Below, piece by piece: positions 9,529 to 48,538 of a DNA stretch of 64,000 bases. The notes beneath the pieces were generated by a model. The model was not told the origin of the DNA. It did no database searches and saw only the letters and a program-made list of their open reading frames with translations. Position numbers and translations under genes: made by a program. Origin of the DNA: an uncultured Bacteroidales bacterium (GTDB lineage Bacteria > Bacteroidota > Bacteroidia > Bacteroidales > Muribaculaceae); assembly GCA_902779125.1 (NCBI GenBank), contig CACZAC010000001.1, forward strand, positions 106,071 to 170,070, read 5' to 3'. The first letter of the stretch is position 1. Every line of letters begins with the position of its first letter.

Positions 9529-9538
9529 TAACTGCAAA

Positions 9539-12930: not shown

Positions 12931-12936
12931 TAATTC

Positions 12937-26912: not shown

Positions 26913-28156
26913 TGTATCTTTACGGAGCTAGCGGACACGCTAAAGTCATCATTGACATGTTGAATGCATCAGGTGTTAAAATTGATGCTTTATTTGATGA
27001 TGATAAAACGATCAGTGAGTTGATGAGTATTCCTGTGAAACATCAGTGGAATCGCGAATCCCCCATAATTATCAGCATTGGTAATAATTTCACACGCAAG
27101 CAGATTGCTGAAAAATTGTGCTGTGAATACGGCATAGCTATTCATCCTTCTGCTATTATTTCACCATATGCTTCAATTGGAGAAGGGAGCGTAGTGATGC
27201 AGGGGACAATTGTCCAAAGTTCTGCTCATATCGGGAAACACTGCATTGTGAATACCGGTGCAACAGTGGATCATGAATGTGTTATCGAAGATTATGTCCA
27301 TATTTCACCTAAGGCCACACTGTGTGGCAATGTCTATGTGGAAGAAGGGGCTTGGATTGGCGCATCTGCTGTAGTGGTGCCCGGAGTAAGGATTGGCAAG
27401 TGGAGCTTAATCGGAGCAGGAAGTGTAGTTGTTAGCGATATCCCTGATGGCGTTATTGCCTATGGAAATCCCTGTAGAGTAAAGTCTGTTCATAAGACCT
27501 GTTGCTCAAAACGCATTGCTATTTATGGAGCTGGAGGCTTAGGACGGGAGGTAGCAGGCGGTATTCAGCGTATCAATCAAGCCGGTTTGGGCAACTGGAA
27601 TCTAGTGGGCTTCTATGATGATGCCAAGCCTAAGGGTTTCAAGGTGTCTCATTTAGGCGAAGTGCTTGGAGGTATGGATGAGTTAAATGCTATGGAGCAA
27701 CCAATGGCGCTTGCTATTGCAGTGGGCACTCCGATGTCACGAAGGATGATTCATGACCGCATCACCAATCCAATGATTAGTTTTCCCAACCTAATTTCAC
27801 CCTCGTTCAAAGTGCTTGATCCTTCGACATTTAAAATTGGTGAAGGCAATATTATTCAGGACAATTGTAGCGTGACTTGTGATGTTGAAATTGGTGATTA
27901 CAACGTTCTCAATGGCTCTAATGTAATGGGTCATGACGTTAAAGTCGGTAATTTCAATGTGATGATGCCAGGAGTGCGCCTTTCTGGAGAAGTTTCAATT
28001 GGCGATAATAACCTTTTAGGTGTTGACAGTGTTGTCCTTCAGCGGGTAAAAGTAGGTAATAACATCACTCTGGGCGCTGGTAGTGTTCTGATGACAAAGC
28101 CTAAGGATGGATTCACCTATATCGGTGTTCCTGCTAAAAAGTTTGACTTTAAATAA
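26912..28156 (+). CDS. Bimodular PglD-like sugar O/N-acetyltransferase (two fused copies)
   Basis: 414 residues composed of two complete PglD-type units. Unit 1 (about 1-195) has a Rossmann-like start YGASGHAKVIIDM and a left-handed beta-helix with the expected catalytic His in GATVDHEC. Unit 2 (about 202-414) starts again at RIAIYGAGGLGREVAG and ends IGVPAKKFDF; its His is in VMGHDVKV. Single-unit PglD proteins are about 200-215 residues and trimeric, so this is a tandem fusion. Unit 2 is clearly paralogous to the stand-alone protein at 34997. PglD N-acetylates a UDP-4-amino sugar using acetyl-CoA; two units could act on different positions. It follows the initiating transferase, as pglC-pglD pairs do. 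Confidence 0.85.
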   Translation: MYLYGASGHAKVIIDMLNASGVKIDALFDDDKTISELMSIPVKHQWNRESPIIISIGNNFTRKQIAEKLCCEYGIAIHPSAIISPYASIGEGSVVMQGTIVQSSAHIGKHCIVNTGATVDHECVIEDYVHISPKATLCGNVYVEEGAWIGASAVVVPGVRIGKWSLIGAGSVVVSDIPDGVIAYGNPCRVKSVHKTCCSKRIAIYGAGGLGREVAGGIQRINQAGLGNWNLVGFYDDAKPKGFKVSHLGEVLGGMDELNAMEQPMALAIAVGTPMSRRMIHDRITNPMISFPNLISPSFKVLDPSTFKIGEGNIIQDNCSVTCDVEIGDYNVLNGSNVMGHDVKVGNFNVMMPGVRLSGEVSIGDNNLLGVDSVVLQRVKVGNNITLGAGSVLMTKPKDGFTYIGVPAKKFDFK

Positions 28157-28168
28157 AAGGATAAGGAT

Positions 28169-28921
28169 ATGGATTATAATCCCTTTTCATTGGTCGGTAA
28201 GACTATATTGGTGACAGGTGCGTCATCTGGCATCGGACAGGAAACCGCTATTGCATGTTCAAAATTGGGTGCCCGCGTCATTGTGACGGCCCGCAACCAA
28301 GAGCGTCTACAGGAAACATTTGACCAACTTGAGACGATAGATGAAGGGCACATGCAATTGTTGGCTGATATGACTTCTCAAGAAGACTTAGAACAGCTGA
28401 TTGCTTCTTTACCCTCGCTTGATGGAGCAGTTCTTTGTGCCGGCAATTCCACTACCTTACCCCTACAGTTTGGTTCGCGACAGAAATTTGATGAGATGTT
28501 TGACGTGAATTTCTTTGCACCAGTGGAACTGTTGCGCTTAATGTACAAGAAGAAGGTTCTCCAAAAGGGTGCTTCTGTTGTCATGATAGCGTCAATTGGC
28601 GGCACTCACAGTTTTATGCCAGGCAACGGTGTGTATGGCGCATCCAAAGCTGCTCTCAACTCGGTGATGAAATATGCAGCCCGCGAGTACGCCTCACGAA
28701 AGATAAGAGTCAACAGCATCTGCCCCGGTATGGTGGACACGCCACTTATCCATCGAGGCACCATCACTGAGGAACAACTGGCCGAAGACGCTAAGAAATA
28801 CCCATTAGGTCGTTACGGCCGTCCTGAGGACATTGCCAATGGAGCAATATACCTCTTAAGTGATGCCTCAAGTTGGCTCACAGGGCATGATTTGGTTATT
28901 GATGGAGGTTTTTCAATATAG
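28169..28921 (+). CDS. Short-chain dehydrogenase/reductase (SDR), FabG-like
   Basis: 250-residue classical SDR. NAD(P)-binding TGASSGIG at 16-23, the catalytic Ser142, Tyr156 and Lys160 (YGASK), and the C-terminal LLSDASSWLTGHDLVIDGG characteristic of FabG relatives. It could reduce a 3-ketoacyl-ACP or a keto sugar; both fit because a PglD gene is upstream and acyl carrier protein genes are downstream. The operon appears to break after it: a consensus promoter is at 28937-28967. Clean full-length gene with 12 bp to the upstream neighbour. Confidence 0.88.
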   Translation: MDYNPFSLVGKTILVTGASSGIGQETAIACSKLGARVIVTARNQERLQETFDQLETIDEGHMQLLADMTSQEDLEQLIASLPSLDGAVLCAGNSTTLPLQFGSRQKFDEMFDVNFFAPVELLRLMYKKKVLQKGASVVMIASIGGTHSFMPGNGVYGASKAALNSVMKYAAREYASRKIRVNSICPGMVDTPLIHRGTITEEQLAEDAKKYPLGRYGRPEDIANGAIYLLSDASSWLTGHDLVIDGGFSI

Positions 28922-28936
28922 TTTTTTAGCTTTTTC

Positions 28937-28967
28937 TTTGTTGAAAGAAAATTTGTATGTACATTTG
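28937..28967 (+). promoter_or_regulatory. Internal consensus promoter for the acyl-carrier section
   Basis: TTTG (28937-28940), 19 bases, TACATTTG (28960-28967), a full match to the Bacteroidetes consensus. Predicted start near 28973, about 50 nt before the first ACP gene. It makes the ACP/KAS III section separately transcribable. Confidence 0.65.
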
Positions 28968-29023
28968 CCCTCTCAATCATTAATTTTTGATACTTTTGAC
29001 TAGAAACTCAAATTCATTTATGT

Positions 29024-29257
29024 ATGAATATACAGGATTTTATTGAAAACTTCGCGGCACAGTTTGATGATACTGATGAAGCACTATTTACCGCTGAAAC
29101 CGAATTTAAAGCACTGGATGAATGGTCCTCGTTAACTGCATTGTCTATTATTGCAATGGTTGATGACGAGTATGACGTTATAATCAAGGGTAGTGATATA
29201 TTGAATTCCAATACGATTCAGGATTTATTTGAAATTGTTGAAAATCAACAACAATAA
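29024..29257 (+). CDS. Acyl carrier protein (ACP-1)
   Basis: 77-residue acidic four-helix carrier protein. The phosphopantetheine site is EWSSLTAL, where Ser36 (in S-S-L, replacing the usual D-S-L) should carry the prosthetic group. It is not the housekeeping AcpP (no DSLD). It is closely paralogous to the ACP at 35826: I count about 43 identical positions of 77, including the N-terminal FIENFA and AMVDxEYDV. It carries an acyl thioester for the ligase, KAS III or transferase encoded downstream. First gene after the internal promoter. Confidence 0.87.
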   Translation: MNIQDFIENFAAQFDDTDEALFTAETEFKALDEWSSLTALSIIAMVDDEYDVIIKGSDILNSNTIQDLFEIVENQQQ

Positions 29258-29284
29258 AGCAATCCAAATCGATTAATATCAGTA

Positions 29285-29515
29285 ATGGAGAATAAGGTCA
29301 AGGCAATCATCGCTCGGGTATTGAATGTTGACCCCGTGGTGATAACAGACGGACTGTGCTCTGGTGACATACCCGAGTGGGATTCTGTTGGAAACTTGGC
29401 CATTATAAGTACACTCGAGCAGGAACTAGAAATTGAATTCCCGCTTGAAGATTTGTTCGACTTGACATCTGTTCAGTCAATTGTCGACGAAGTCAACCAA
29501 TTAATGCATGTTTGA
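29285..29515 (+). CDS. Acyl carrier protein (ACP-2)
   Basis: 76-residue acidic carrier protein with the attachment site EWDSVGNL, Ser34 in D-S-V. It differs from ACP-1 and resembles carrier proteins paired with adenylating ligases or FkbH proteins. Its last 8 bp overlap the start of the AMP-forming ligase gene (29508), implying translational coupling and that this ACP is the ligase's partner. Confidence 0.85.
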   Translation: MENKVKAIIARVLNVDPVVITDGLCSGDIPEWDSVGNLAIISTLEQELEIEFPLEDLFDLTSVQSIVDEVNQLMHV

Positions 29516-30980
29516 TGCTCCTCACAGCCATGTGCTCAGTTGTATAGCTGGCCTTGCGCGACATAACCCCGACAAGGTTGCCCTTGTTGAGGGCAATCAG
29601 CGCATCACTCGCGGCCAACTCGTTACAAATATTGAGATTGCTGCATCCTTTTTGACATCAATCGGCTTAAAACCGGGTGACCGAATACTGTTGTCTGCCC
29701 GCAAGGAACTTGAGTTTGTCTATTTGTATTTTGCAGCCCAACTGCTTGGGATTGTCAACGTAGTTGTTGATCCAACTTCTCCGCAGGACAGACTGGATTA
29801 TATTCTGAGGACCACTAATCCCGTAGCAGTTATTGGGCTCAACCTTCTAACAGGAAACCATCGTTGTATCCAGTTTGATGATGTCAATGTCAACCACAGC
29901 AATTGGGGAGACTCCATATACACATGGCCCAAGGTGAACGCTGATGATGTGGCGGATATCATGTTCACCACAGGGACAACAGGAGCTCCCAAGGGCGTTT
30001 GCCTTTCTCACGCCAACTTATCAGGTTCAGCCAGCAACATCAATGGCTTTATCGGCAACCGCGAGGAAGATATTGAGGCTCTAGGATTGCCATTAAGTCA
30101 CTCATTCGGACTTGGACGTCTGCGTTGCGTGATGATGGCAGGCGGCACAATGGTCCTGGTGGGCAATTTTGCTAATCTCAAGGCCTTTTTTACGATATTA
30201 GAACAAGAACATGTAACAGGGTTTGGAATGGTTCCTGCTGTATGGCAATACATCAAGCGGTTAAGTGGCACCCGCATTGCCAAGTTCAGCAACCAGCTTC
30301 GTTATATTGAGGTGGGCAGCGCTGCTTTGCCAATCGAAGACAAGCGTCTATTAATGGAATTGTTCCCCAATACCCGACTCTGCATCCATTACGGTTTAAC
30401 CGAAGCATCAAGGGCATTATTCAGCGAGTTGCATCTTAATGCCAAGAATCTAGAATCAATAGGTAAACCCGTTTCCAGTCATGTTGAGGTGTGTATTCTG
30501 GACGAGAATGGTGAACCTGTACCTGACGGCACCGATGGAGAGCTGTGTGTCTGCGGTAATATGGTCATGAAGTCCTATTTGTTACCCGATGACAATGCAG
30601 ATGCCTTTTATGACAGATGGTTCAGGACAGGAGATTGGGGACATCGTGATAGCAATGGTTATTTCTATTTGACTGGCCGTAAAAAAGAACTCATCAATGT
30701 GGGAGGGGAGAAGGTAAGTCCTGCTACTATCGAAGCTGCCATAATTTCGCTTGGAGTGCCTGATTGTGCCTGTATTGCAATACCAGATCCTAATGGAGTG
30801 TTAGGTGAAGTGCCCAAAGCCTTTTTGCAGCGCTACGATAACCCATTGACTATCGATGAGATAAGACAACATTTAGCCCATTTGCTGCTCAGTAATGAAA
30901 TTCCAGTTCAATACGAATGGGTTGATGTGATTCCCCGTTCTTCTTCAGGTAAAATACAGCGTCTAAAGCTGAAAAGATAG
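29508..30980 (+). CDS. AMP-forming acyl-ACP/CoA ligase (ANL superfamily)
   Basis: 490-residue adenylating enzyme. P-loop-like A3 motif TTGTTGAPKG at 154-163, the A5 region HYGLTEASR, A7 WFRTGDWG, and the A10 catalytic lysine in PRSSSGKIQR (Lys482). All core motifs are present, so it should activate a carboxylic acid as its adenylate and pass it to a thiol, most likely ACP-2, whose gene it overlaps. The acid could be a hydroxy, amino or short fatty acid. No condensation or thioesterase domain is attached. Confidence 0.88.
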   Translation: MFDAPHSHVLSCIAGLARHNPDKVALVEGNQRITRGQLVTNIEIAASFLTSIGLKPGDRILLSARKELEFVYLYFAAQLLGIVNVVVDPTSPQDRLDYILRTTNPVAVIGLNLLTGNHRCIQFDDVNVNHSNWGDSIYTWPKVNADDVADIMFTTGTTGAPKGVCLSHANLSGSASNINGFIGNREEDIEALGLPLSHSFGLGRLRCVMMAGGTMVLVGNFANLKAFFTILEQEHVTGFGMVPAVWQYIKRLSGTRIAKFSNQLRYIEVGSAALPIEDKRLLMELFPNTRLCIHYGLTEASRALFSELHLNAKNLESIGKPVSSHVEVCILDENGEPVPDGTDGELCVCGNMVMKSYLLPDDNADAFYDRWFRTGDWGHRDSNGYFYLTGRKKELINVGGEKVSPATIEAAIISLGVPDCACIAIPDPNGVLGEVPKAFLQRYDNPLTIDEIRQHLAHLLLSNEIPVQYEWVDVIPRSSSGKIQRLKLKR

Positions 30981-31011
30981 AAACTACTATATCAATAAAC
31001 TGTTAGTATCT

Positions 31012-32073
31012 ATGTCACGACTAACAATTAATAATATACGCATTGCCGGATTGAGCGCCTGTGTTCCTTCGACAGTAGAAGACAACCTCACTTTGCCCAT
31101 CTACAAAGATCAGAACGAAGCTCAAAAAGTCATCACTTCAACCGGTATCGAACGTCATCACAAGGTTGAAGTTGGGACTACGGCATCCGATTTGACCGTT
31201 AAAGCAGTTGAGGACTTGCTTAGCAATTTAGGTTGGGAATCTCAAGATGTGGACTGTTTTGCCTATGTATGTACATCACGAGATTATATTGCTCCCCAAA
31301 CTGCTTGTGTATTGCAAGATAGACTGAAATTGCGCAGTGACTGCTGTGTGTTTGATTTGCCGTTCGGCTGTTCGGGGTGGGTCTATGGTATGAGTATCGT
31401 AGGGTCGCTGATGTCTCACGGTACTCTCAAGCGTGGCATCCTGGTAGCTGCCGAAACCAATACGCAGAACCGCAATCCTCGCGATACGACCGTGCGTCCC
31501 TTGTTTGGCGACGCTGCTACAGCAACCGCTCTCGTGTTTGACCCAGACAACTCACATCCCATGAATTTCATGTTTGGGGTTGACGGCAGTGGTTTTGACG
31601 CGGTGTGGGCTCCATATGGTGGCATGCGCAATCCAGTCACACCCGATGCCCTTGAAGAAAAAGAGGTCTCTCCTGGGGTCTACAGGCGTGGTGTTGACAT
31701 GGTTGTCAATGGCATGGACGTATTTGGTTTTGCTATTAAGCAACCTCCCCGTTCAATCAAGGAGCTTATCTCCACATTCAGTATTGATGTGGAAACTGTG
31801 GACTTGCTGCTTCTGCATCAAGCTAACAAGTTCATCGATGAGAAAATACGCAAATCCATTAAGATGCCCCCCGAGAAAACACCTTATTGTCTTGAAGAAT
31901 ACGGCAATGTCACCAGCGCTTCTATCCCACTGACTATGGTGTCTAGATGCCGCGAACAGTTATCAGGAGATGATAAACATTGCATCGCATGCGGATTCGG
32001 CGTTGGACTGGCATGGGCAAGTATGGAATTTTATGCTGGCGGAATAAAAGTTGGAGATGTCATTGATTATTAA
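31012..32073 (+). CDS. KAS III family enzyme (FabH-like), copy 1
   Basis: 353-residue thiolase-fold protein. Cys120 in PFGCSGW, His269 in LLHQANKF and Asn299 in YGNVTSAS form an intact KAS III triad. Housekeeping FabH starts fatty-acid synthesis, but relatives such as CerJ acylate sugars from carrier-bound acyl groups, and others such as RkD build tetronates with glyceryl-ACP. Position in a glycan locus, beside ACPs and a ligase, argues for such a specialised role. It is paralogous to the enzyme at 36193; both share GMRNPxTP and the placement of Cys120. Confidence 0.88.
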   Translation: MSRLTINNIRIAGLSACVPSTVEDNLTLPIYKDQNEAQKVITSTGIERHHKVEVGTTASDLTVKAVEDLLSNLGWESQDVDCFAYVCTSRDYIAPQTACVLQDRLKLRSDCCVFDLPFGCSGWVYGMSIVGSLMSHGTLKRGILVAAETNTQNRNPRDTTVRPLFGDAATATALVFDPDNSHPMNFMFGVDGSGFDAVWAPYGGMRNPVTPDALEEKEVSPGVYRRGVDMVVNGMDVFGFAIKQPPRSIKELISTFSIDVETVDLLLLHQANKFIDEKIRKSIKMPPEKTPYCLEEYGNVTSASIPLTMVSRCREQLSGDDKHCIACGFGVGLAWASMEFYAGGIKVGDVIDY

Positions 32074-32079
32074 ACACTG

Positions 32080-33180
32080 ATGGGGCATTATATCAATACA
32101 AATAAGGAATTTTACTGGGGCGACTGGTACTTCAAGTCCCATGTGATGTCTGACGGCTTTGACTACAAAGCTCACAAGAAGGAACTGTCTCCTTACTATG
32201 AATCACGTGGCTTTAAGGTCTCGATGATGTTTGCCGATTACTTCTCGAGGCTAAACGGCATCCACAGTGACCGATACCTGTCTATGGACGTGTACTACTT
32301 CTTTGTAATACCGTCACTTAACCGTTACGATTTTAAGGACGCCTATCTCGACAAGAACATCTACAGCGAATTGTTCCCTAACGTGAAGCAACCACTAGCT
32401 ATTGTCAAGAATATACATGGTCACTTGTATCGTGATGGACAAGAGATTTCTCTTGAGCAAGCCATAGCCGCAATCCAGAGTCATGAAGGAAATCTTATTA
32501 TCAAGCCAACAGTAGAAACCTGCAACGGGGAAGGAGTCGAGCAGATAGGTGACTGCTCAACCGAGCAATTGAAGGCTTTGCTTGAGCACTATGGCATCAA
32601 CTTCATCGTACAGGAGAAAGTAAAACAGCATCCTGATCTGCAACGTGTTAATCCAACATCACTCAATTCGATGCGGTTATACACTTATCGCCGCCTGGAT
32701 GGCACCTACGAGTTCTTGTATCCGTTTGCACATCTTCGTTTCGGTGGCAAGGGAGCCATCAAGGATAATGTATCGCAGGGTGGGGGAACCTGCTTGATTC
32801 ATCCCGACGGACGGGTTGACGACAGGGTGTATCGCTTCAAGGACATGAACGTCAGCTCACTAAGCAAGGAAACAGGGGTTGACAATCTTGTGATACCCTG
32901 TTATGAGAAGGTCATTCAGACGCTCTTCCAGATGCATAGCCGCTTGCCCTACTTTGATTTTGTGGGATGGGATGTGACGGTTTTGCCCGACGGCGAGCCC
33001 TTACTGATAGAGTTTAACCTGGTTCCCAGTGTTGAAGGGCCGCAAATGATGGCTGGTCCCATGTTTGGAGAGTATCTTGATGAGGTCATTGAACGAGCAA
33101 GTCATGTAGAGTGTTCACGGGAGCAAAACTATAAAAAAGTTTTCCCCAAAAACTCACTATTCTATCTCCACATGCAATGA
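32080..33180 (+). CDS. Sugar-transfer-associated ATP-grasp ligase
   Basis: 366 residues. The ATP-grasp layout is visible: GNLIIKPTVETCNGEGV as the small ATP-binding strand-loop (about 143-160), FIVQEKVKQH, the basic SLNSMRLYTYR segment, and the metal-binding GWDVTVLPDGEPLLIEFN near 300-320, matching the PF14397-type sugar-transfer ATP-grasp family. Such enzymes form an amide or ester bond between a carboxylate and an amine via an acyl phosphate. It could attach an amino acid or acid group to the glycan or amino sugar. It starts 6 bp after KAS III copy 1. Confidence 0.8.
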   Translation: MGHYINTNKEFYWGDWYFKSHVMSDGFDYKAHKKELSPYYESRGFKVSMMFADYFSRLNGIHSDRYLSMDVYYFFVIPSLNRYDFKDAYLDKNIYSELFPNVKQPLAIVKNIHGHLYRDGQEISLEQAIAAIQSHEGNLIIKPTVETCNGEGVEQIGDCSTEQLKALLEHYGINFIVQEKVKQHPDLQRVNPTSLNSMRLYTYRRLDGTYEFLYPFAHLRFGGKGAIKDNVSQGGGTCLIHPDGRVDDRVYRFKDMNVSSLSKETGVDNLVIPCYEKVIQTLFQMHSRLPYFDFVGWDVTVLPDGEPLLIEFNLVPSVEGPQMMAGPMFGEYLDEVIERASHVECSREQNYKKVFPKNSLFYLHMQ

Positions 33181-33206
33181 GAATCCTATAACACCGTTGT
33201 TTATCA

Positions 33207-33788
33207 ATGAGCATGACAATCCATCAAGTAGTTAACACTATCTTCAGGTCTTGCAGCTATGTGCTGTCCCAGGAGCATTGCTCATGGGTTGTGGATTGTG
33301 GGGATGTTGATAAGCTCTTGCCTTTCATTGATGGTAAACTGAGCGGGATTCTGCTCACTCATGCCCATTTTGATCACATCTATGGCTTGAATACCTTGAC
33401 CTCGTTATTCCCCAAAGTACCAGTCTATACCAATCAAGCTGGACTCGAGAGTTTGACTAATGACAAACTTAATTTCTCAAGATATTATGGTGAACCGTTC
33501 ATCTTCGACAATCCCCAACTTGTCCAACTTATTGATGATGGCAAGTATATCGACTTGTTTGAAGAGACTCGGGTCAAAGCAGTTTTTACTCCCGGCCATA
33601 GCAACGATAGTATAACCTGGGTGGTAAACGACGTATTATTTACAGGTGACAGTTATATACCAGGAGTAAAAACAGTAACCAATTTACCGCACTCCGACAA
33701 GATATTAGCTTCTCAAAGCGAAATCATCATCAAGCAGCTGGCCGAGAACCGTACTGTATATCCCGGTCATGCACCAGAACAGATATAA
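33207..33788 (+). CDS. Metallo-beta-lactamase-fold hydrolase
   Basis: 193-residue MBL-fold protein with two-metal motifs: HAHFDH at 52-57, the His of FTPGHSNDS, the Asp of FTGDSY, and the His of YPGHAPEQ. It resembles glyoxalase II-like and thioesterase-type MBL proteins. Beside ACP and KAS III genes, hydrolysis of an acyl thioester (product release or editing of mis-loaded carrier) is a reasonable inference, not demonstrated. It ends 27 bp before the aminotransferase gene. Confidence 0.83.
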   Translation: MSMTIHQVVNTIFRSCSYVLSQEHCSWVVDCGDVDKLLPFIDGKLSGILLTHAHFDHIYGLNTLTSLFPKVPVYTNQAGLESLTNDKLNFSRYYGEPFIFDNPQLVQLIDDGKYIDLFEETRVKAVFTPGHSNDSITWVVNDVLFTGDSYIPGVKTVTNLPHSDKILASQSEIIIKQLAENRTVYPGHAPEQI

Positions 33789-33815
33789 ACACTTCTAAAA
33801 TATTTATTTAATCAA

Positions 33816-34958
33816 ATGGCTAACAACAGAATACTACTTTGTCTCGCCCACATGAGCGGGCAGGAAATGAAATACATCAAAGAGGCTTTTGATACCAACT
33901 GGGTGGTTCCTTTGGGTCCAAATGTCAATGCATTTGAAGAGGACCTGGAACGACTCTGTGGCGAGGGCAAGCGCGTAGTTGTTCTTAGCGCGGGCACCGC
34001 TGCTATCCATTTAGCACTTGTTAACCTTGGAGTGGGTCGTGGCGATGAGGTGATTTGCCAGTCCATGACTTTCTCGGCCAGTGCCAATCCCATTGTCTAT
34101 CAAGGTGCAACGCCAGTATTCGTCGATAGTGAACGGGACTCTTGGAACATGGACCCCAACTTGCTTGAGGACGCCATCAAGGATCGTATCGCTAAAACAG
34201 GTCGCAAACCCAAAGCCATCATCCCCGTATATCTGTATGGAATGCCTGCCATGATTGATGAGATTATGGAAGTGGCGCAACGCTACGAAATACCTGTCAT
34301 TGAGGACTCTGCTGAAGCCTTCGGTTCCCGCTATCGTGACCGGTTATGCGGCACGTTCGGCATGTTCGGCATTATGAGTTTTAATGGCAACAAGATGATT
34401 ACCACAAGTGGCGGAGGCGCGCTTATTTGTCCTGACGAGGCTACCAAGAAGAAGACCATGTTCTATGCGACACAGTCCCGTGAGCCAATGCCTTATTATC
34501 TGCATAAGGAAATTGGCTATAACTATCGCATGAGCAATATCTGTGCAGGAATCGGTCGCGGCCAGATGACCGTATTGGATGAGCATTTGGCGCATCACAA
34601 GCATTTATGTGAACGTTATGTAGAATTATTTAGCAAAGTTGACGGTATTAGTGTTCACGTTAACCCTGATAGCCGTTTTGACAGTAACTATTGGCTCAAC
34701 ACGATTCTGATAGACCCTGCCAAAACAGGCGTGGATTATGATACCGTTAGACTTCATCTTGATGCGTGCAATATTGAGTCCCGCCCGTTGTGGAAACCAA
34801 TGCATACACAACCCGTGTTTGCTGATGCTCCAGCTTATGTCAACGGGGTGAGTGAAGAATTATTTACCATGGGGCTCTGCCTTCCCAGCGGTCCCTGCGT
34901 GAGCGATGAGGATGTAGAACTCGTTGCTCATGAGATTATAGCTTGTTGCAAGCATTAA
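33816..34958 (+). CDS. DegT/DnrJ/EryC1/StrS-family sugar aminotransferase
   Basis: 380-residue PLP-dependent aminotransferase. The PLP lysine is Lys193 in SFNGNKMITTSGGG; SAGTAAIHLAL at 58-68 and EDSAEAFGSRY at 163-173 bind the cofactor. The sequence is PglE-like: these convert a UDP-4-keto-6-deoxy sugar to the 4-amino sugar with glutamate. The downstream PglD-like gene would acetylate that amine, the order seen in bacillosamine-type pathways. The needed 4,6-dehydratase (PglF) is not in the window. Confidence 0.92.
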   Translation: MANNRILLCLAHMSGQEMKYIKEAFDTNWVVPLGPNVNAFEEDLERLCGEGKRVVVLSAGTAAIHLALVNLGVGRGDEVICQSMTFSASANPIVYQGATPVFVDSERDSWNMDPNLLEDAIKDRIAKTGRKPKAIIPVYLYGMPAMIDEIMEVAQRYEIPVIEDSAEAFGSRYRDRLCGTFGMFGIMSFNGNKMITTSGGGALICPDEATKKKTMFYATQSREPMPYYLHKEIGYNYRMSNICAGIGRGQMTVLDEHLAHHKHLCERYVELFSKVDGISVHVNPDSRFDSNYWLNTILIDPAKTGVDYDTVRLHLDACNIESRPLWKPMHTQPVFADAPAYVNGVSEELFTMGLCLPSGPCVSDEDVELVAHEIIACCKH

Positions 34959-34996
34959 GACGTTATCAGAATATTAACTCAAAAAAAAATAAGATT

Positions 34997-35638
34997 ATGA
35001 AAATTGCAATCTATGGTGCTGGAGGATTTGGCAAGGAAGTTGCCTGCCTTATAGACCGAATCAATGCCTATGGTGGTGACTGGCAGTTGATTGGATTCTT
35101 TGATGACAGCAAGCGCGTTGATTCATCAGTATCACGCTATGGTAAGGTGTTAGGCGGCATGGATATGCTGATGGGCATCGATAAGCCGCTAGCTATCGCC
35201 ATAGCCATCAATGACAACAAGGTTGTTCGTCGTATCCGTGAGAGTATCACCAATCCTAACATCACATTCCCCAATCTCATCGACCCCTCATTGTTTCTGG
35301 TTGATGGACAGACAGTTAAAATGGGTGAGGGCAATATCATCCAGAACGACTGCATGATATCATGTGATGTTACAATTGGTAACTTCAACCTCTTCAATGA
35401 CCATGTCGTTGTGGGCCACGATAATGTCATCGGCAACTTTAACGGACTCATGCCTGGAGCGCACTTGTCAGGAGGCATCACTATTGGTGACAACAATCTG
35501 CTGGGAGTAGCCAGTGTTGTTTTACAGGGCATGTGCATTGGAAATGAAGTGACACTGGGAGCCAACAGCGTACTCATGACTCAACCCAAGAACAATTCCA
35601 CATATCTGGGCGTACCGGCCAGGAAGTTTGATTTCTAA
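34997..35638 (+). CDS. PglD-like sugar acetyltransferase (single unit)
   Basis: 213-residue NeuD/PglD-family protein: Rossmann-like start KIAIYGAGGFGKEVACLI, then a left-handed beta-helix of hexapeptide repeats with the expected His in VVGHDNVIG, and the ending YLGVPARKFDF. It should N- or O-acetylate the amino sugar made by the aminotransferase 38 bp upstream. It is closely paralogous to the second half of the bimodular protein at 26912 (shared KVLGGMD/EVLGGMD, ITNPNITFPNLI/ITNPMISFPNLI, IGDNNLLGV). ATG 34997 is preferred to 34943, which would overlap the aminotransferase. Confidence 0.9.
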   Translation: MKIAIYGAGGFGKEVACLIDRINAYGGDWQLIGFFDDSKRVDSSVSRYGKVLGGMDMLMGIDKPLAIAIAINDNKVVRRIRESITNPNITFPNLIDPSLFLVDGQTVKMGEGNIIQNDCMISCDVTIGNFNLFNDHVVVGHDNVIGNFNGLMPGAHLSGGITIGDNNLLGVASVVLQGMCIGNEVTLGANSVLMTQPKNNSTYLGVPARKFDF

Positions 35639-35772
35639 AAAAGAGGCCATTTCCTGGAAACTCTAATGTCAATACTTGGCAAATGTCCAGTTACATCATT
35701 GTTTCCGGTACAAAAACCACAAAAAAATTGACCGTTATTACTATTCTTGGTGCTTAATTAAGATTTTTTATT

Positions 35773-35810
35773 TAATTTTGCACGCCGTAAAAATATTTTA
35801 GGTATTTTTG
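35773..35810 (+). promoter_or_regulatory. Two -7 boxes upstream of ACP-3
   Basis: TAATTTTG (35773-35780) and TATTTTTG (35803-35810) both match TAnnTTTG. The TTTG within the first box lies 22 bp before the second and could act as its -33 element, slightly longer than the usual 19-21. The second box ends only 15 bp before the ATG. A restart of transcription is plausible in the 187-bp gap. Confidence 0.45.
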
Positions 35811-35825
35811 CGTTATTATTAAACA

Positions 35826-36059
35826 ATGAATTTGGAACAATTCATAGAGAATTTTGCGGGGCTGTTTGATGAAACAGAGCCCGATACCATAAAGGCCACC
35901 ACTCAATTTAAAGATATCGAGGAATGGTCTTCACTTGTTGCTTTATCGGTCATTGCGATGGTCGATGAAGAATATGACGTGGAATTCCACGGAGATGATA
36001 TCCGCAACAGCAACACGGTCGAAGACTTGTATGACATCGTTTTATCAAGGGTTGAATGA
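35826..36059 (+). CDS. Acyl carrier protein (ACP-3)
   Basis: 77-residue carrier protein with the phosphopantetheine site EEWSSLVAL (Ser36). It is a paralogue of ACP-1 at 29024 (about 43 of 77 residues identical by hand alignment), sharing FIENFA at the start and AMVDEEYDV in the centre. It precedes KAS III copy 2 by 133 bp. A weak stem (CTCCGCC/GGTGGAG) in that gap may lie in the transcript. Confidence 0.87.
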   Translation: MNLEQFIENFAGLFDETEPDTIKATTQFKDIEEWSSLVALSVIAMVDEEYDVEFHGDDIRNSNTVEDLYDIVLSRVE

Positions 36060-36192
36060 TGGCAAGGAACACGGCAAATAATCTCCGCCTCGACTATTGT
36101 TGATGGTGGAGGTGTGTTGTGTAGTGTTTGTTGTTATATTTATAACTCATAGCACTGGAGAACCCTCTTTTAACTAAAAACCATACGAGCCT

Positions 36193-37242
36193 ATGGCAAA
36201 GATAACATTTCACGGTGTGGGTATTAAAGCTTTAAGTGCTTGCGTACCACCTGAAGTAATCTATAACAAGGACTTGGGTTACCTTGTCCCTGAGGAAGAA
36301 ATAGAAAAAACAATCAATAATATCGGTATTATTGAACGTCGTATCGCTGCTCCCGATGTTATGGCCAGCGATTTATGTTACAAAGCGGCTCAACAACTCA
36401 TGGCCGACAATGATATCGCACCTGACAGCATAGATGTGCTGCTCTTTATGAGTCAGACTCCCGATTACCGCATACCTGCAACATCTTGTCTGCTGCAACA
36501 CCGACTGGGTCTTCCCCGTGAGACAATGTGCTTTGACATCTCTTTGGGCTGCTCGGGATATCTTTTTGCTCTGAGCACTGCTTTTGCCTATGCTTCGATG
36601 GAAGGTATTAACCGTGTGCTTCTACTTGACGGTGAAACGTTTTCCAAGATTGTCAACCGTCGGGACAAAGTAGACTGGCCCTTATATGGAGATGCAGGAA
36701 CTGCTACTCTTATCGAAAAGGGAGATTACGGAGATTCCACTTTTATGCTCTATACTGATGGAAGCGGGGAGGATACGCTGAAGATTCATGCCGGTATGCG
36801 CAATCCCATCACACCCGAATCTTGTGTCGAACGTGAGCAGGAGGATGGCAACATCCGCAGTGACCTGGAGGTCTATATGGACGGGATGGATGTATTCAAC
36901 TTTGCCATAAGCAAGGTTCCCAAGAGCATTAAACAACTGCTCAAGGAAGCAGAAAAATCGGTTGATAACGTGGACTATCTTATCTTCCATCAAGCAAATC
37001 GATTCATGATGGACTTCTTCGTTAAGAAGCTCAAGATGGACCCCGACCGTGTGCCTTATTGCATCCACAAGTATGGCAACACAAGCAGTGCTTCTGTCCC
37101 TTTGACCATTTCCAGTGAACTCTGTGGCAAGCTGGATGGTAACCACACAATGCTCATGAGTGGTTTTGGAGCCGGATTGAGTTGGGGCTCCGCACTCATG
37201 TCAATGCACGACTGCAAGGTGTCGCCAGTCATTGAGTATTGA
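36193..37242 (+). CDS. KAS III family enzyme (FabH-like), copy 2
   Basis: 349-residue FabH-like protein with an intact triad: Cys120 in SLGCSGY, His266 in IFHQANRF and Asn296 in YGNTSSAS. Copy 1 (31012) has Cys at the same residue number and shares ASDL, HRLGL/DRLKL and GMRNPITP-type segments, so the two are paralogues that have diverged. With ACP-3 immediately upstream, it likely uses ACP-3-bound acyl groups. Possible roles are acyl transfer to a sugar, or condensation with the glyceryl-ACP expected from the downstream FkbH. It overlaps the next gene by 1 bp (TGATG). Confidence 0.88.
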   Translation: MAKITFHGVGIKALSACVPPEVIYNKDLGYLVPEEEIEKTINNIGIIERRIAAPDVMASDLCYKAAQQLMADNDIAPDSIDVLLFMSQTPDYRIPATSCLLQHRLGLPRETMCFDISLGCSGYLFALSTAFAYASMEGINRVLLLDGETFSKIVNRRDKVDWPLYGDAGTATLIEKGDYGDSTFMLYTDGSGEDTLKIHAGMRNPITPESCVEREQEDGNIRSDLEVYMDGMDVFNFAISKVPKSIKQLLKEAEKSVDNVDYLIFHQANRFMMDFFVKKLKMDPDRVPYCIHKYGNTSSASVPLTISSELCGKLDGNHTMLMSGFGAGLSWGSALMSMHDCKVSPVIEY

Positions 37243-37652
37243 TGGAAACGCAACTCATTTTTCACCATATCGGCATTGCCTGTCGTAGTATCGAGAAGAC
37301 CAAGCGCTTCTATGTCTCAATGGGATATGAAGCAGCGACCACAGTGGATGACCCCATTCAGCATGTGCGTGTATGTTTCCTGACGAATCCAGAGGCTCCG
37401 TGTATCGAACTGCTCGAACCGCTTGATGATATGAATCCATTATCCCGCACTCTCGAGAGTGCGGGGGTTTCACCTTATCACACTTGCTATGAAGTTCAGA
37501 ACATCAAGGCTGCCATTGATGATTTGCGCAGCCAGCGTTTTCTGCTGGTGAGCGGTCCAGTGCCTGCTTGTGCAATGAATGACAGACAAGTGGCTTTTCT
37601 CTATAAAAAAGACAATGGTCTTCTAGAATTAGTTGAAGCCCAACGCTCATGA
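37242..37652 (+). CDS. VOC-family protein (methylmalonyl-CoA epimerase/glyoxalase-like)
   Basis: 136-residue vicinal-oxygen-chelate protein. Paired beta-alpha-beta-beta-beta units are visible; probable metal ligands are His in FHHIGIA, Glu in CIELLEP, His in PYHTCYEV and Glu in GLLELVEA, the pattern of methylmalonyl-CoA epimerase and glyoxalase I relatives. It may epimerise or isomerise an acyl thioester made by the neighbouring enzymes. Start ATG 37242 overlaps the KAS III stop. Small and complete; the function is inferred from family only. Confidence 0.82.
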   Translation: METQLIFHHIGIACRSIEKTKRFYVSMGYEAATTVDDPIQHVRVCFLTNPEAPCIELLEPLDDMNPLSRTLESAGVSPYHTCYEVQNIKAAIDDLRSQRFLLVSGPVPACAMNDRQVAFLYKKDNGLLELVEAQRS

Positions 37653-38659
37653 AAGAGATTCTATTATCATATGTCGTACCGGTATATAATACCGAAGCCT
37701 ATGTGATTAAATGTCTGGAAACAATTGTTAACCAGGATATTAATCCCGATGAGTATGAGGTAATCGTTGTTGATGACGGCTCTCCCGACAACAGCCGGAC
37801 TATCGTTGAAGATTATACCCGCACCCATCAACAAGTACGTTTGATTTCCCAGCCTAACGGAGGCCTGAGCGCCGCCCGTAATACGGGTATCAAACATGCC
37901 CGTGGGCGTTATCTGCATTTTGTGGACAGTGACGACTACCTTGTACCAGGAATGATGAATTCCCTGTTACAGCGTGCAGTGAATCAGAATCTTGACATCC
38001 TTTTCTTCAACTATCAGAATGTGGATATGCAGGGGCAACCCATTTCTACTGATAGGGTCGTAGAATTCCCTTCAACATCGCCCATGTCAGGTTATGATTT
38101 CCTTTGTACACATCCAATGATTCCCTATGCATGGCGCTTCCTGCTGAGCCGTGAATATCTTGATAAAAACGGACATCGCTTTGATACATCTATCCTCATC
38201 TGTGAGGATGGACCTTTCATGGCTCATATTCTGCCCAATGCGGGTAACGTGGCCTATGAGGATGCCGTTGCCTATTGCTATGTGAACCGTGGAGACAGTT
38301 TCATGCATAATCCTGATCCCGAGCATCTGCGCCGACGCTTGCTGAGTCAGGTGGATGCTGCAGCCTCTATAAATGAGGCCATCACTCATTTCGAGTCAAC
38401 GACTGGACTGACTTCTCCCAAAAGCGTCGCAGGCATGAGAAACGTGTATCTTTATTTTTCGATGACCAAGGCTTTGACCTGTGGATGTGTTGACGATGTC
38501 TTGCAACACATCAAGCAGGCAGGGCTATATCCGTTTCCATGCGTTGGACCCGAGGCGAATTATTTCGGTAAAAAGTGGGCTGTTATACATCGCTTGATGA
38601 TGTGTCCAGGCATTTGGAAATTCTTGAGTAAAATTTACTGCTTGATTAAGAAAAAGTGA
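37649..38659 (+). CDS. Glycosyltransferase family 2
   Basis: 336-residue GT2. It starts LLSYVVPVYNTEAYVIKCL, has VVDDGSPDNS near residue 42, and the metal-binding DSDD in FVDSDDYLVPG near residue 90. ICEDGPFMAH carries the likely catalytic acidic pair. Its ATG overlaps the VOC stop codon (ATGA) and its own end overlaps the FkbH start, so it is locked between acyl-metabolism genes. That coupling suggests the acyl product and the sugar linkage belong to the same pathway. Confidence 0.88.
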   Translation: MKEILLSYVVPVYNTEAYVIKCLETIVNQDINPDEYEVIVVDDGSPDNSRTIVEDYTRTHQQVRLISQPNGGLSAARNTGIKHARGRYLHFVDSDDYLVPGMMNSLLQRAVNQNLDILFFNYQNVDMQGQPISTDRVVEFPSTSPMSGYDFLCTHPMIPYAWRFLLSREYLDKNGHRFDTSILICEDGPFMAHILPNAGNVAYEDAVAYCYVNRGDSFMHNPDPEHLRRRLLSQVDAAASINEAITHFESTTGLTSPKSVAGMRNVYLYFSMTKALTCGCVDDVLQHIKQAGLYPFPCVGPEANYFGKKWAVIHRLMMCPGIWKFLSKIYCLIKKK

Positions 38660-40251
38660 TGACCACATTTGTTTTTAGAAACCACACGGTCGAAGCCTTC
38701 TTCGGTTATGATGGCGTGACTTACTCGGGATATGATGATATCAGTTCCGTACCCGGGGATGTGGATCGTTACATTTGGTTCTTCCAGGTTCCTGTCAATG
38801 CTGATAGTGCTCAGCTTGTACAAGAAATAGATTCCTACTGCGACCAACTTGACTTAGTAATTGCCAGTGTCAATGAGAACAAGCCCTTCATTGTGTTCTC
38901 CCTGGAGAATCTATTCCCACTGCGGCTTACAGGTAATGAGACTTCGGTTAGTGAATCGGTCAACCGATTCAACCACCATGTCATTGAACTGGCGAAATCA
39001 CACCAAAACATCAAATGGGTTGATTTCAGTGAGTTCACATCCCGGTATAATGCCGAGACGCTTGTGAACTGGAAATACTATCTCATGTCTCAGACCTTGC
39101 TTAATCCCAAACTGGCCCATGATTTCCACGCATGGTGGCAACAAATCAACAGCCAATTGGATTTACAGCGCAAGAAATGTCTTGTCCTGGACCTCGACAA
39201 TACATTGTGGGGTGGGGTACTAGGTGAAGACGGCATCGACGGCATCAAACTGGGCGGAGACTATCCTGGCAACGCTTTCTTCTATTGGCAGCGCTCACTG
39301 CTGCAATTGGCAAAGAATGGTGTTATTCTGGCCATCTGTAGCAAGAATAACGAGAATGATGTGATTCAGGCATGGCAACTCAATCCCAATATGGTGCTCA
39401 AGCGTGAGCACTTTGCCGCTGTTCGCATCAATTGGAATGATAAAGCGACTAATCTGAGTGAACTGGCCGATGAACTCAACATCGGTCTGGACAGCATGGT
39501 CTTTGTTGATGATAATCCTACCGAGCGTGAACTCATCAAGCAGATGCTGCCTCAAGTCGAAGTACCAGATTTTCCTGAAAAGCCCTATCAATTGATGCCT
39601 TTCTTCAAACAATTGACAGAGAGGTTTTTCCGCATCTATGCCGTAACCAACGAGGACTTGGTAAAGACCCGTCAATATCAGGAGAATGCAATGCGACATG
39701 CCGAGAGGTCACAATTTGCCGACCTTGAGAGCTATCTTTATAGCCTTGACATCGCCATCGATGTCATTCCTGTCGATGAGCATCGGGTGCCCCGAGTGGC
39801 CCAAATGACACAAAAGACCAACCAGTTTAATCTGACCACCCGCCGCTATACCGAGAGCGATGTGCGACAGCTCATGGAACAGGGTTGGCACCTGTTTTGC
39901 ATGAATGAGAGTGACCGTTTTGGCGACAACGGCGTCACAGGAACCATATTTCTTGAACCTCTTGACGATGTCACTGTAAACATCGACACATTGCTGCTGA
40001 GCTGCCGCATTTTGGGCAAGGGGGTTGAGGATGCCTTTGTCAAAACCGTACTCAACTTGTTGAGACTTGACGGATACCGGCACGTGAAAGCGCAATATCT
40101 GCCCACTGCCAAAAACATGCAGACGGCTGATTTCTATGACAGGTTGGGAATGACTTGCGTCAAGATAAGTCCCGATGGTGTCAAGGACTATGAGATGGAT
40201 TTGAAACAAGTTTTTGAAATTAAGAATTGCTATAATATCAGAGTATTATGA
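38659..40251 (+). CDS. FkbH-like HAD-IIIC protein with C-terminal GNAT-like domain
   Basis: 530 residues. An N-terminal domain of about 170 residues is followed by a HAD core with DLDNTLWGG at 178-186 (Asp178 and Asp180 catalytic) and the motif IV strand MVFVDDNPTERE; the C-terminal 200 residues resemble a GNAT acyltransferase fold (ESDRFGDNGVTGT, LLSCRILGKGVE). Characterised FkbH enzymes take 1,3-bisphosphoglycerate and load a glyceryl group on an ACP. The downstream ACP-4 gene overlaps this one by 4 bp, which is the classic partner arrangement. Product probably glyceryl-S-ACP for ester formation or tetronate chemistry. Confidence 0.9.
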   Translation: MTTFVFRNHTVEAFFGYDGVTYSGYDDISSVPGDVDRYIWFFQVPVNADSAQLVQEIDSYCDQLDLVIASVNENKPFIVFSLENLFPLRLTGNETSVSESVNRFNHHVIELAKSHQNIKWVDFSEFTSRYNAETLVNWKYYLMSQTLLNPKLAHDFHAWWQQINSQLDLQRKKCLVLDLDNTLWGGVLGEDGIDGIKLGGDYPGNAFFYWQRSLLQLAKNGVILAICSKNNENDVIQAWQLNPNMVLKREHFAAVRINWNDKATNLSELADELNIGLDSMVFVDDNPTERELIKQMLPQVEVPDFPEKPYQLMPFFKQLTERFFRIYAVTNEDLVKTRQYQENAMRHAERSQFADLESYLYSLDIAIDVIPVDEHRVPRVAQMTQKTNQFNLTTRRYTESDVRQLMEQGWHLFCMNESDRFGDNGVTGTIFLEPLDDVTVNIDTLLLSCRILGKGVEDAFVKTVLNLLRLDGYRHVKAQYLPTAKNMQTADFYDRLGMTCVKISPDGVKDYEMDLKQVFEIKNCYNIRVL

Positions 40252-40472
40252 ATTTAGAAGAAAAAGTACTGGAGATCATGCGTGAGGCCTTTGAGACACA
40301 AGATGTCTCGCCGTCATCTTCACAACGCAACTGCGAGCGATGGGATTCCTTGCGGCACCTCACTTTGGCATCCGAGCTTGAAGAAGCTTTCGATATTGAG
40401 CTGGAGCCAGAGGAGATAGCCACAATGACCGACTTCTCGCGCGTCATTGAGATGTTGCAGTCAAAATTGTGA
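40248..40472 (+). CDS. Acyl carrier protein (ACP-4), FkbH partner
   Basis: 74-residue carrier protein with the attachment site RWDSLRHL (Ser34 in D-S-L). Its ATG overlaps the FkbH stop (ATGA), as usual for glyceryl-ACP systems. It is the fourth ACP in the cluster and distinct from ACP-1 and ACP-3, with the consensus Asp kept. It is the last gene of the cluster; a strong hairpin terminator follows at 40506-40537. Confidence 0.87.
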   Translation: MNLEEKVLEIMREAFETQDVSPSSSQRNCERWDSLRHLTLASELEEAFDIELEPEEIATMTDFSRVIEMLQSKL

Positions 40473-40619: not shown

Positions 40620-41675
40620 ATGAAATACATTTGTCATCTGATTGCTATAATTGCCTCCTTTGTGCTACTGTTTGCGGCCTATGGCGGTCGCGTGAATCCC
40701 ATGGAGTGGACATTGCCGTCGATTGCGACACTAGCGTTGCCGGTGATTGCAATGATTGCTATCGTCCTGCTTGCTTTACTGGCGTTGTTCCGGCAATGGC
40801 GCTCAGTCGCTGTCATTGTAGGTGCACTGCTTCTCTCATGGCCCACGTTGCGCTTGATATCACCCTTCAACCTGAGCCACCCTGATGCCGACCCCGACAA
40901 AGTCCAACTCAAGGTGCTCTCGATTAACGTTCAAGAGTTCAATTGGTTTGACGGCAATACTGAACCGAACAAAACCATGCGCTATATCCTGGATCAGGAC
41001 GCCGATATTGTAGCTATTCAAGAGGCCACTGTCTACTTCACATTCGAACAGCTCAAGCCCATCAAGCCAATGCTTGAGGAATTATATAAAAAATATCCTT
41101 ACCGCAAGGATGGTTATTATGATGTGGGCATCCTGTCGAAGTACCCGATAACCCCGGTGGAATCGCCAGTGCTGGCTCAGGATTCGTTATCCTACTTTAT
41201 CAAGGCCTGGGATGTGGATGCTCCTGGTGGAGAATTGAGGGTTGTGAACATGCATCTGAGTTCACTGCGCTTCTCCGGCAACGATACACGCATACTAGAC
41301 TCGATGAACAAGCCATCGGGACGGAAACAACGGGCGCAATCCGTATTAAAGAAACTCACTGATGGATTCCGTTCACACACGCGGTTATCCGAAACGATAA
41401 GGGAGTTACTGAATGTGACCACAGGTGATGTCCTGGTCATGGGGGACATGAATGACACCCCGGGGTCCTATGCCTACCGTACCATTTGTGGTGAAGACAT
41501 GCGCGATTCATGGGCCGATGTCGGCTTTGGACCCATTTATACATTTCATGACCATCATTTGTACGTCAAGATAGATCATATTCTGTATCGTGGCGATATG
41601 AAGGTGTTATCCAGCCGTCGTGACAAGGAGGGCGAGAGCGACCACTATCCGCTTGTCGCTGTCTTTGAGCGGTAA
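40620..41675 (+). CDS. Endonuclease/exonuclease/phosphatase-family protein with N-terminal membrane helices
   Basis: 351 residues. The first 85 hold three hydrophobic helices; the rest is an EEP (DNase I-like) domain with the metal-binding IQEATVYF, the Asn/Asp loop MGDMNDTPGS, and the terminal ESDHYPL that carries the catalytic His. EEP proteins cut phosphodiesters in nucleic acids, lipids or small metabolites. With a membrane anchor and the catalytic domain probably periplasmic, a lipid or nucleic-acid phosphodiesterase is possible. It is not part of the cluster (separated by a terminator), but precedes a lipoprotein gene by 72 bp. Confidence 0.85.
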   Translation: MKYICHLIAIIASFVLLFAAYGGRVNPMEWTLPSIATLALPVIAMIAIVLLALLALFRQWRSVAVIVGALLLSWPTLRLISPFNLSHPDADPDKVQLKVLSINVQEFNWFDGNTEPNKTMRYILDQDADIVAIQEATVYFTFEQLKPIKPMLEELYKKYPYRKDGYYDVGILSKYPITPVESPVLAQDSLSYFIKAWDVDAPGGELRVVNMHLSSLRFSGNDTRILDSMNKPSGRKQRAQSVLKKLTDGFRSHTRLSETIRELLNVTTGDVLVMGDMNDTPGSYAYRTICGEDMRDSWADVGFGPIYTFHDHHLYVKIDHILYRGDMKVLSSRRDKEGESDHYPLVAVFER

Positions 41676-46830: not shown

Positions 46831-46906
46831 AATGAATTTAATCTCATTAAAGTTAATATATTTACTAATAAACACAAATTCAATAGGGTATGTTGGCTAT
46901 GCTTTG

Positions 46907-48505: not shown

Positions 48506-48538
48506 TTGCATACACATATCTGTCGTGAGTATATTTGC
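48506..48538 (+). promoter_or_regulatory. Consensus promoter of the LRR gene
   Basis: TTTG (48506-48509), 21 bases, TATATTTG (48531-48538). Start near 48545, leaving a leader of about 60 nt; this rules out the upstream start at 48506 for the LRR gene. Confidence 0.7.

Follow-up and report, generated by a model that had tools for sequence, protein, structure and literature searches.

A gene block with FkbH, two KAS III enzymes and four acyl carrier proteins in a Bacteroidales polysaccharide cluster, and its predicted role in amino sugar acylation

Gene content of the block

The window analyzed here is a stretch of 64,000 nucleotides from an uncultured Bacteroidales bacterium of the Muribaculaceae (GenBank assembly GCA_902779125.1, contig CACZAC010000001.1, positions 106,071 to 170,070), of which the draft genome comprises 97 contigs. 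A polysaccharide cluster within this window ends on the right in a block of 17 open reading frames (ORFs) that runs on the plus strand from 26295 to 40472 and brings together acyl carrier proteins (ACPs), β-ketoacyl-ACP synthases III (KAS III), an FkbH enzyme and sugar-modifying genes. Our analysis documents the gene content of the block, the conservation of its catalytic residues and the modular co-occurrence of its genes, and the block very probably produces an amino sugar whose N-acyl group is built on carrier proteins.

The block opens with a PglC-type phosphoglycosyl transferase (26295–26912; PF02397, 200 bits), the kind of enzyme that places the initiating sugar on a lipid carrier; its best NCBIfam matches are exopolysaccharide (EPS) sugar transferases, below cut-off. 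It is followed by PglDD (26912–28156), in which two PglD-type acyltransferases share one ORF (TIGR03570, 367 bits overall in two stretches), and by a short-chain dehydrogenase/reductase (SDR; 28169–28921; PF13561, 188 bits), a probable 3-oxoacyl-ACP reductase for which the FabG models remain below cut-off. Next come ACP1 (29024–29257; PF00550), ACP2 (29285–29515; PF00550, 34.5 bits), an AMP-forming ligase (29508–30980; PF00501, 241 bits) that overlaps its partner ACP2 by 8 bases, and KAS1 (31012–32073; PF08541/PF08545), a KAS III assigned to the ligase and ACP2. An ATPgrasp_ST protein (32080–33180; PF14397, 94 bits), a metallo-β-lactamase (MBL)-fold hydrolase (33207–33788; PF00753, Lactamase_B, 62 bits), a PglE/LegC-type sugar aminotransferase of the DegT family (33816–34958; PF01041, 302 bits) and the N-acyltransferase PglD2 (34997–35638; PglD_N/Hexapep; TIGR03570) lead to the FkbH-side genes. 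These are ACP3 (35826–36059; PF00550), the predicted extender and product carrier; KAS2 (36193–37242; PF08541/PF08545), a KAS III assigned to FkbH; a vicinal oxygen chelate (VOC) protein resembling methylmalonyl-CoA epimerase (37239–37652; PF13669, Glyoxalase_4, 77 bits); a family 2 glycosyltransferase (GT2; 37649–38659; PF00535, 116 bits); FkbH itself (38656–40251), a predicted glyceryl-ACP synthase with a haloacid dehalogenase (HAD) and a GNAT-like domain; and its partner ACP4 (40248–40472; PF00550, 20.7 bits against a cut-off of 20.8). Overlaps of 4 bases join KAS2, VOC, GT2, FkbH and ACP4 in the ORF list. The start codon of VOC is TTG, with an ATG three bases further on.

The initial annotation had listed four ACPs, two KAS III enzymes, an AMP-forming ligase, FkbH, ATP-grasp, MBL-fold, VOC, DegT, PglD and GT2 genes on a single strand. 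ORF coordinates and Pfam and NCBIfam matches bear out the entire inventory, together with the ligase/ACP2 and FkbH/ACP4 overlaps that it reported. Its genes are real, but its left edge was drawn too short, as PglC, PglDD and the SDR at 26295–28921 belong to the block. It had also overlooked the ketoreductase, the doubled PglD/ACP pairs and the modular make-up described below.

Linkage of FkbH and KAS III across relatives

A scan of a genome collection with the FkbH alignment yielded 80 loci among the matches listed, several of them from the same genomes. Loci were assigned to the window's FkbH type at a score of at least 590 bits against an FkbH profile made here, a score class with no FkbH tree behind it, and the hidden Markov models (HMMs) that scored the 80 loci were trained on L033–L074. 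Among these FkbH-selected loci, a KAS III was present in the stretch at 26 of the 32 with the window's type (the others being L097, L105, L110, which is a short contig, L111, L113 and L118) and at 0 of the 48 with other types. In the family sample, at a KAS threshold of 1e-60, a KAS match lay nearby on the same contig at 25 of 28 FkbH places of at least 48% identity, the exceptions being G252, G271 and G065. The initial annotation had staked its proposal on the genes not being scattered and unlinked in relatives, and the KAS, FkbH and ACP genes indeed remain linked. Because the same block recurs in relatives, its composition is not due to chance.

The gene company was counted in 50 non-redundant loci of the window's FkbH type, obtained by removing FkbH rows whose C-terminal stretches were identical and by excluding L001–L032. 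These figures lean towards KAS because L033–L074 were picked by KAS2 matches, the ratios given above being free of that bias, and the loci are related, so that some species may count twice. KAS was found in 42 loci, accompanied by an ACP of the ACP1/ACP3 type (ACPx) in 42 of 42 and by an SDR in 39 of 42; of the remaining three loci, two are at contig ends and one has an SDR 10.7 kb away. Neither ACPx nor SDR occurs in any of the eight loci without KAS. An ACP4-type ACP lies within 1.5 kb of FkbH in all 50, and other FkbH types also have an ACP beside FkbH (48 of 51). Same-strand neighbors within 10 kb differ between the window's type (n = 50) and the others (n = 51) for PglD (39 versus 12), DegT (37 versus 8), SDR (39 versus 5) and PglC (15 versus 3). 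When the 22 same-genus loci are set aside, KAS persists in 20 of 28, and these 20 include ACPx in 20, SDR in 20, PglD in 17 and DegT in 15. Gene order varies while the company stays, a pattern that speaks for functional selection.

Minimal operons with one PglD, ACPx, KAS, SDR, VOC, FkbH, ACP4 and DegT plus PglC were found in L053, L054 and L114. The last, from Chryseobacterium jejuense CC143 (7058–13716), reads PglC-PglD-ACP-KAS-VOC-FkbH-ACP-SDR-DegT, followed by a second sugar transferase. A metagenome-assembled genome (MAG) labelled as a Methanofastidiosia archaeon (L101) carries PglC-PglD-ACP-SDR-KAS-FkbH-ACP-DegT, through either transfer or contamination. The closest named loci belong to uncultured Prevotellaceae and Bacteroidales assemblies. 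In the phylum sample, FkbH was found in 3 of 395 genomes at 1e-120, the window's among them, and in the order sample in 28 of 393 at 1e-40, four of which, the window's included, reached at least 600 bits; of the other three, two have KAS beside FkbH and one (L199) has ACP4 only. These counts suggest that few genomes outside the family carry the window's FkbH type.

The KAS enzymes themselves follow this linkage. In a tree of 89 KAS rows, which left out rows below 100 bits or shorter than about 250 residues and the window's own KAS, the FkbH-adjacent enzymes (n = 42) form one clade with support of 97/98. FkbH linkage takes one change on this tree against a mean of 29.9 in shuffles, and ligase linkage takes three. 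KAS2 of the window is 82–88% identical to 18 FkbH-linked rows. The full Cys-His-Asn triads initially noted in both KAS III enzymes (Cys112, His244 and Asn274 in Escherichia coli FabH numbering) are kept in every aligned glycan KAS, the window's two included (90 of 90: 43/43 FkbH-linked, 26/26 ligase-linked and 21/21 with neither partner). W32, R36 and R249 of E. coli FabH, which we take to be residues of the coenzyme A (CoA) site, are found in 0 of 90, KAS1 included (0/43 FkbH-linked, 0/26 ligase-linked), and R151 in 3 of 43 FkbH-linked and 3 of 26 ligase-linked enzymes. The glycan KAS therefore have the triad of a CoA-dependent FabH and not its CoA-site residues, a loss that would suit an ACP-bound rather than a CoA starter. 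A search of the window's own genome found one further KAS III, a FabH-like enzyme that retains W32, R36 and R249, so that neither KAS1 nor KAS2 is the housekeeping KAS III. A third, deep KAS III type, 332–334 residues long where measured, occurs in L038 (162–1172), L063, L070, L072 and L080 and branches separately from both KAS1 and KAS2.

A proposed pathway from carrier-bound acyl groups to an amino sugar

The viosamine island of Pseudomonas syringae offers a parallel. In PMC3927599, its genes vioA, vioB, vioS, vioR and acp are assigned to N-(3-hydroxybutyryl) viosamine, several of them through mass spectrometry of mutants, and homologues are placed in the flagellin glycosylation island of Pseudomonas aeruginosa PAK. 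As in that island, a KAS III (VioS), a ketoreductase (VioR), an ACP, a PglD-family acyltransferase (VioB) and a DegT aminotransferase (VioA) occur together in one glycan locus. The island is built around dTDP-viosamine and one ACP, and the seven ORFs named there include no FkbH, AMP-ligase or VOC; in contrast, the window holds two modules, and the family matches of 5688–40472 include a weak nucleotidyltransferase and no dTDP-glucose dehydratase. Beyond the viosamine set, the block adds loaders: FkbH paired with ACP4, and the ligase paired with ACP2. This parallel, and the company of PglD, DegT and SDR in most loci, support that part of the initial proposal in which acyl groups of an unusual kind, built on carrier proteins, end up on an amino sugar.

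On the sugar side, the best solved matches of DegT are 1o61 and 4ztc, titled only 'aminotransferase', which we take to be PglE. The nearest solved structures to PglD2 are a pilin glycosylation protein, a perosamine N-acetyltransferase and also VioB. Elsewhere in the genome, a frame of 676 residues gives one strong PF02719 match; judged from its family, this protein is a candidate dehydratase that can supply the 4-keto sugar.

The carrier proteins and acyltransferases point to a duplication. The attachment serine, previously noted in the ACPs, is invariant in aligned relatives with the window included (ACPx 78/78, ACP2 23/23, ACP4 58/58). ACP1 and ACP3 are 56% identical, all other ACP pairs being at most 24%, and PglD2 shares 58% identity with the C half of PglDD, the N half being 24–25% identical to both; the PglD/ACPx pair is therefore present twice in the block. 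One copy lies near ACP2, the ligase and KAS1, and the other near KAS2, VOC, FkbH and ACP4. The PglDD halves match separate stretches in relatives, some nearly abutting, and some relatives carry the C half only.

Relatives resolve two travelling units, VOC-FkbH-ACP4, which stands alone in some loci, and KAS-ACPx-SDR. In addition, three of 20 same-genus loci (L039, L040 and L045, among L033–L052, fetched via KAS2 matches) lack a whole set of five genes, namely ACP1, ACP2, ligase, KAS1 and ATP-grasp, with the FkbH module intact; as these three are close relatives, the absence is probably one event. L051–L056 have FkbH, KAS2 and ACP4 and neither ACP2 nor a ligase on the same strand, and L065–L067, on contigs of about 9–14 kb, carry ACP2-ligase-KAS1 without FkbH. 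The five genes would form a separable second module making another acyl group, for which the AMP-ligase probably loads some free acid on ACP2 as the start; the MBL-fold hydrolase is possibly an acyl-ACP thioesterase. Alternatively, KAS1 and KAS2 might act in line on one chain and yield a longer polyhydroxy acyl group, which would fit loci where two KAS accompany a single ACPx and a single PglD match (L051, L052 and L109), the similar L055 (the genome of L100), which has a weak second PglD match on the other strand, and L103, with two KAS and no PglD match. We regard this arrangement as quite improbable, given that KAS1 has an ACP and a ligase of its own and that its module is missing as a block from L039, L040 and L045.

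FkbH exceeds its curated cut-off (TIGR01686, 285 versus 146.65 bits), and its HAD motif DLDNT is invariant in 12 of 12 aligned rows. Its predicted structure has a pLDDT of 81 and a pTM of only 0.51; a fold search with this model gave Bacteroides fragilis BF1531, a protein with a phosphatase domain, as the top match (TM 0.38 of the query) along with many GNAT folds, and these are the matches expected for FkbH. In VOC, H10 (100%), Q41 (97%), H81 (100%) and E130 (100%) are conserved over 41 aligned rows, and Asp38 is invariant or nearly so. We take the former four to be the His-Gln-His-Glu metal ligands of methylmalonyl-CoA epimerase. VOC scores below the cut-off for that enzyme (TIGR03081, 59 versus 114.95 bits). 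It is possibly an epimerase of glyceryl-ACP.

The full mechanism that we propose is a viosamine-type pathway with a glyceryl starter, a reading held with about even confidence, and we infer all of its chemistry from the genes. DegT would aminate UDP-4-keto-6-deoxy-GlcNAc, with the dehydratase encoded elsewhere in the genome. FkbH would transfer glyceryl from 1,3-bisphosphoglycerate to ACP4, where VOC may invert C2. KAS2 would then join the glyceryl unit with malonyl-ACP3, adding two carbons, to give 4,5-dihydroxy-3-oxopentanoyl-ACP3, which the SDR would reduce to 3,4,5-trihydroxypentanoyl-ACP3. PglD2 or the C half of PglDD would move this acyl group to the 4-amine of the UDP-sugar, and PglC would attach the acylated sugar to undecaprenyl phosphate, where it would begin the polysaccharide. 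With one of each gene, the C. jejuense operon makes a line from glyceryl-ACP4 to 3,4,5-trihydroxypentanoyl on an amino sugar the simplest. The predicted sugar residue is C13H22N2O7, with a calculated oxonium ion at m/z 319.150; the corresponding calculated ions are 229.118 for N,N'-diacetylbacillosamine (diNAcBac) and 275.124 for the glyceramido analogue.

Other fates of glyceryl-ACP have to be weighed. In polyketide loci, the formation of glyceryl-ACP is assigned to FkbH (PMC7489565); the tetronate and methoxymalonyl pathways likewise pair FkbH with a stand-alone ACP, and a FabH-like enzyme uses glyceryl-ACP. The block differs in having sugar-acylation partners and no polyketide synthase (PKS) chain among its family matches. 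A free tetronate-like small molecule, which the initial annotation had offered as an alternative, is now disfavored and seems very improbable. Neither an acyltransferase/dehydratase pair nor a PKS is among the Pfam and NCBIfam matches of the block (the pair's own models were not run), the usual company is PglD, DegT and glycan genes, and FkbH loci without KAS exist. Hydroxymalonyl- or methoxymalonyl-ACP, the other known fate of glyceryl-ACP in that source (PMC7489565), is an equally remote prospect as an extender made by FkbH, since it needs two dehydrogenases and a methyltransferase, of which none is among the block's family matches, one SDR apart.

Several observations weigh against the trihydroxypentanoyl pathway. 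DegT scores 358 bits against the LegC-family model with a cut-off of 420, and PglD2 is under the NeuD cut-off (TIGR03570, 154 versus 160.8 bits). Eight of the 50 loci lack KAS (one, L110, being a short contig), so that the FkbH product can serve other uses, and VOC is found in 40 loci and missing from 10. PglD and DegT lie within 10 kb in 39 and 37 of 50 loci and PglC in only 15, with many stretches ending early. The loss of CoA-site residues is family-wide rather than specific; since it extends to the 21 KAS without FkbH or ligase beside them, it says only that this KAS family probably uses no CoA starters in the manner of FabH. Finally, the window has three PglD domains alongside two KAS and a single SDR, and the pathway does not account for the acid of the ligase, the ATP-grasp protein or the MBL-fold hydrolase.

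KAS-less FkbH cassettes, related systems and surroundings

FkbH loci without KAS bear on a further alternative. L075, from the same genus, contains VOC, FkbH, ACP4, PglD, DegT and PglC and no KAS, ACPx or SDR; by analogy with Neisseria glyceramido acetamido trideoxyhexose (GATDH; PMC11130364), its product is expected to be N-glyceroyl, made by another route. By eye, two ORFs between DegT and PglC of L075 resemble an ATP-grasp protein and a GNAT/PLP fusion, which leaves room for further acylations at this locus. L076 (3582–11689) is a pseudaminic acid operon without KAS, in which PseH and PseG flank VOC-FkbH-ACP4; the operon also has PseB, PseC, PseI and a PseF split in two, PseC and PseG scoring just below their cut-offs and PseH just above. 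N-glyceroyl pseudaminic acid is known from Tannerella forsythia, and PMC6120980 stated in 2018 that a candidate gene for the glyceroyl group 'remains elusive'; the L076 gene set suggests a candidate for N-glyceroyl pseudaminic acid and a route to N-glyceroyl nonulosonates.

In the window, PglD might likewise put the glyceryl of FkbH directly on the amino sugar, with the KAS building a separate 3-hydroxyacyl group for another amine. The KAS-less cassettes of L075 and L076, the existence of GATDH in Neisseria and the three PglD domains of the window would fit such a product. We nevertheless consider it unlikely, as L053, L054 and L114, with one PglD and one DegT each, hold both FkbH and KAS, and the FkbH-adjacent KAS form a clade apart.

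Taken together with the trihydroxypentanoyl pathway, these loci lead to a tentative proposal, which we consider less probable than that pathway alone. A portable cassette of FkbH, ACP and VOC epimerase may feed glyceryl to glycans, alone giving N-glyceroyl sugars including pseudaminic acid, and with KAS III, a second ACP and an SDR giving trihydroxypentanoyl amino sugars as the first residue. If true, the latter combination would be a miniature polyketide-like line for surface glycans, linking the glyceryl-ACP chemistry of polyketides to the acylation of surface sugars. It predicts a new acyl group of exact mass, with C. jejuense CC143 as the organism for testing, and offers candidate genes for glyceroyl groups of Bacteroidota glycans. 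A 2025 review describes it as unknown whether such modifications precede assembly, on nucleotide sugars, or follow it (PMC12871550); the gene company at these loci argues for acyl addition at the nucleotide-sugar stage.

Other FkbH types were also observed near sugar genes. Five Bacillota loci, from Lachnospiraceae and one Eubacteriales MAG (L138, L142, L144, L145 and L154), have FkbH near PseI-like genes and weak PseH-like matches (30–60 bits), and no PseI-like match was found in far-type FkbH stretches of six genomes. Another FkbH family of about 575 residues, with an ACP, lies near a membrane protein that resembles an MBOAT O-acyltransferase by eye (L204, 6933–10624; L208, 8653–12043; L209, 6093–10938), possibly an O-glyceroylation system.

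Compared with known gene sets, the block has FkbH, ACP and FabH-like genes in common with the five-gene tetronate glycerate-utilisation operon, whose further partners, and a PKS as polyketide donor, are not among the block's family matches; the two dehydrogenases and O-methyltransferase of the methoxymalonyl-ACP operon are likewise not among its family matches. The Neisseria PglB2 pathway leads to GATDH (PMC11130364), an acetamido trideoxyhexose bearing a glyceramide and forming the first sugar of a glycan on undecaprenyl diphosphate, and the window is predicted to make a sugar of a similar kind. The Neisseria protein fuses ATP-grasp with the phosphoglycosyl transferase, whereas the window would use carrier-bound glyceryl from FkbH and PglD transferases; its PglC carries PF02397 only, and ATP-grasp is a separate gene. 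In one of two Parabacteroides distasonis capsule loci (NZ_OY725812.1 / NZ_OY725780.1), a PglD-type acetyltransferase-ACP-ACP-ligase-KAS-SDR run resembles the window; the other has the same kinds reordered beside RfbA, dTDP-glucose dehydratase and DegT. Both lie near a sugar transferase, and the annotation of the stretches covered shows no FkbH and no VOC in either. A P. distasonis locus in our set (L074, 2312–16056) carries RfbA, dTDP-glucose dehydratase, DegT and acetyltransferase-ACP-SDR-SDR-ligase-ACP-KAS, likely a dTDP-linked counterpart in a gut species. The neighbors of cj1302 include fabH and ACP genes; a literature search on them listed no paper. Among the open-access literature matches listed, none joins FkbH, KAS III and a Bacteroidota polysaccharide locus, which is a weak absence.

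In the part of the cluster upstream of the block (5688–26293), GT2 and GT4 genes are numerous and are joined by two acyltransferases, a polysaccharide pyruvyl transferase and an EpsG-family protein; no flippase family is among its family matches, despite the EpsG-family protein. A weak nucleotidyltransferase at 7785–8516 and an APH-family kinase at 10116–11000 could, as a guess, be a LicC/LicA-like pair. The gene after the block (40620–41675) belongs to the endonuclease/phosphatase family and has no clear link to it. Further along the window, two type I dockerin-domain proteins are encoded at 44839–46875 (minus strand) and 48506–50227 (plus strand), one of them with BspA-type leucine-rich repeats.

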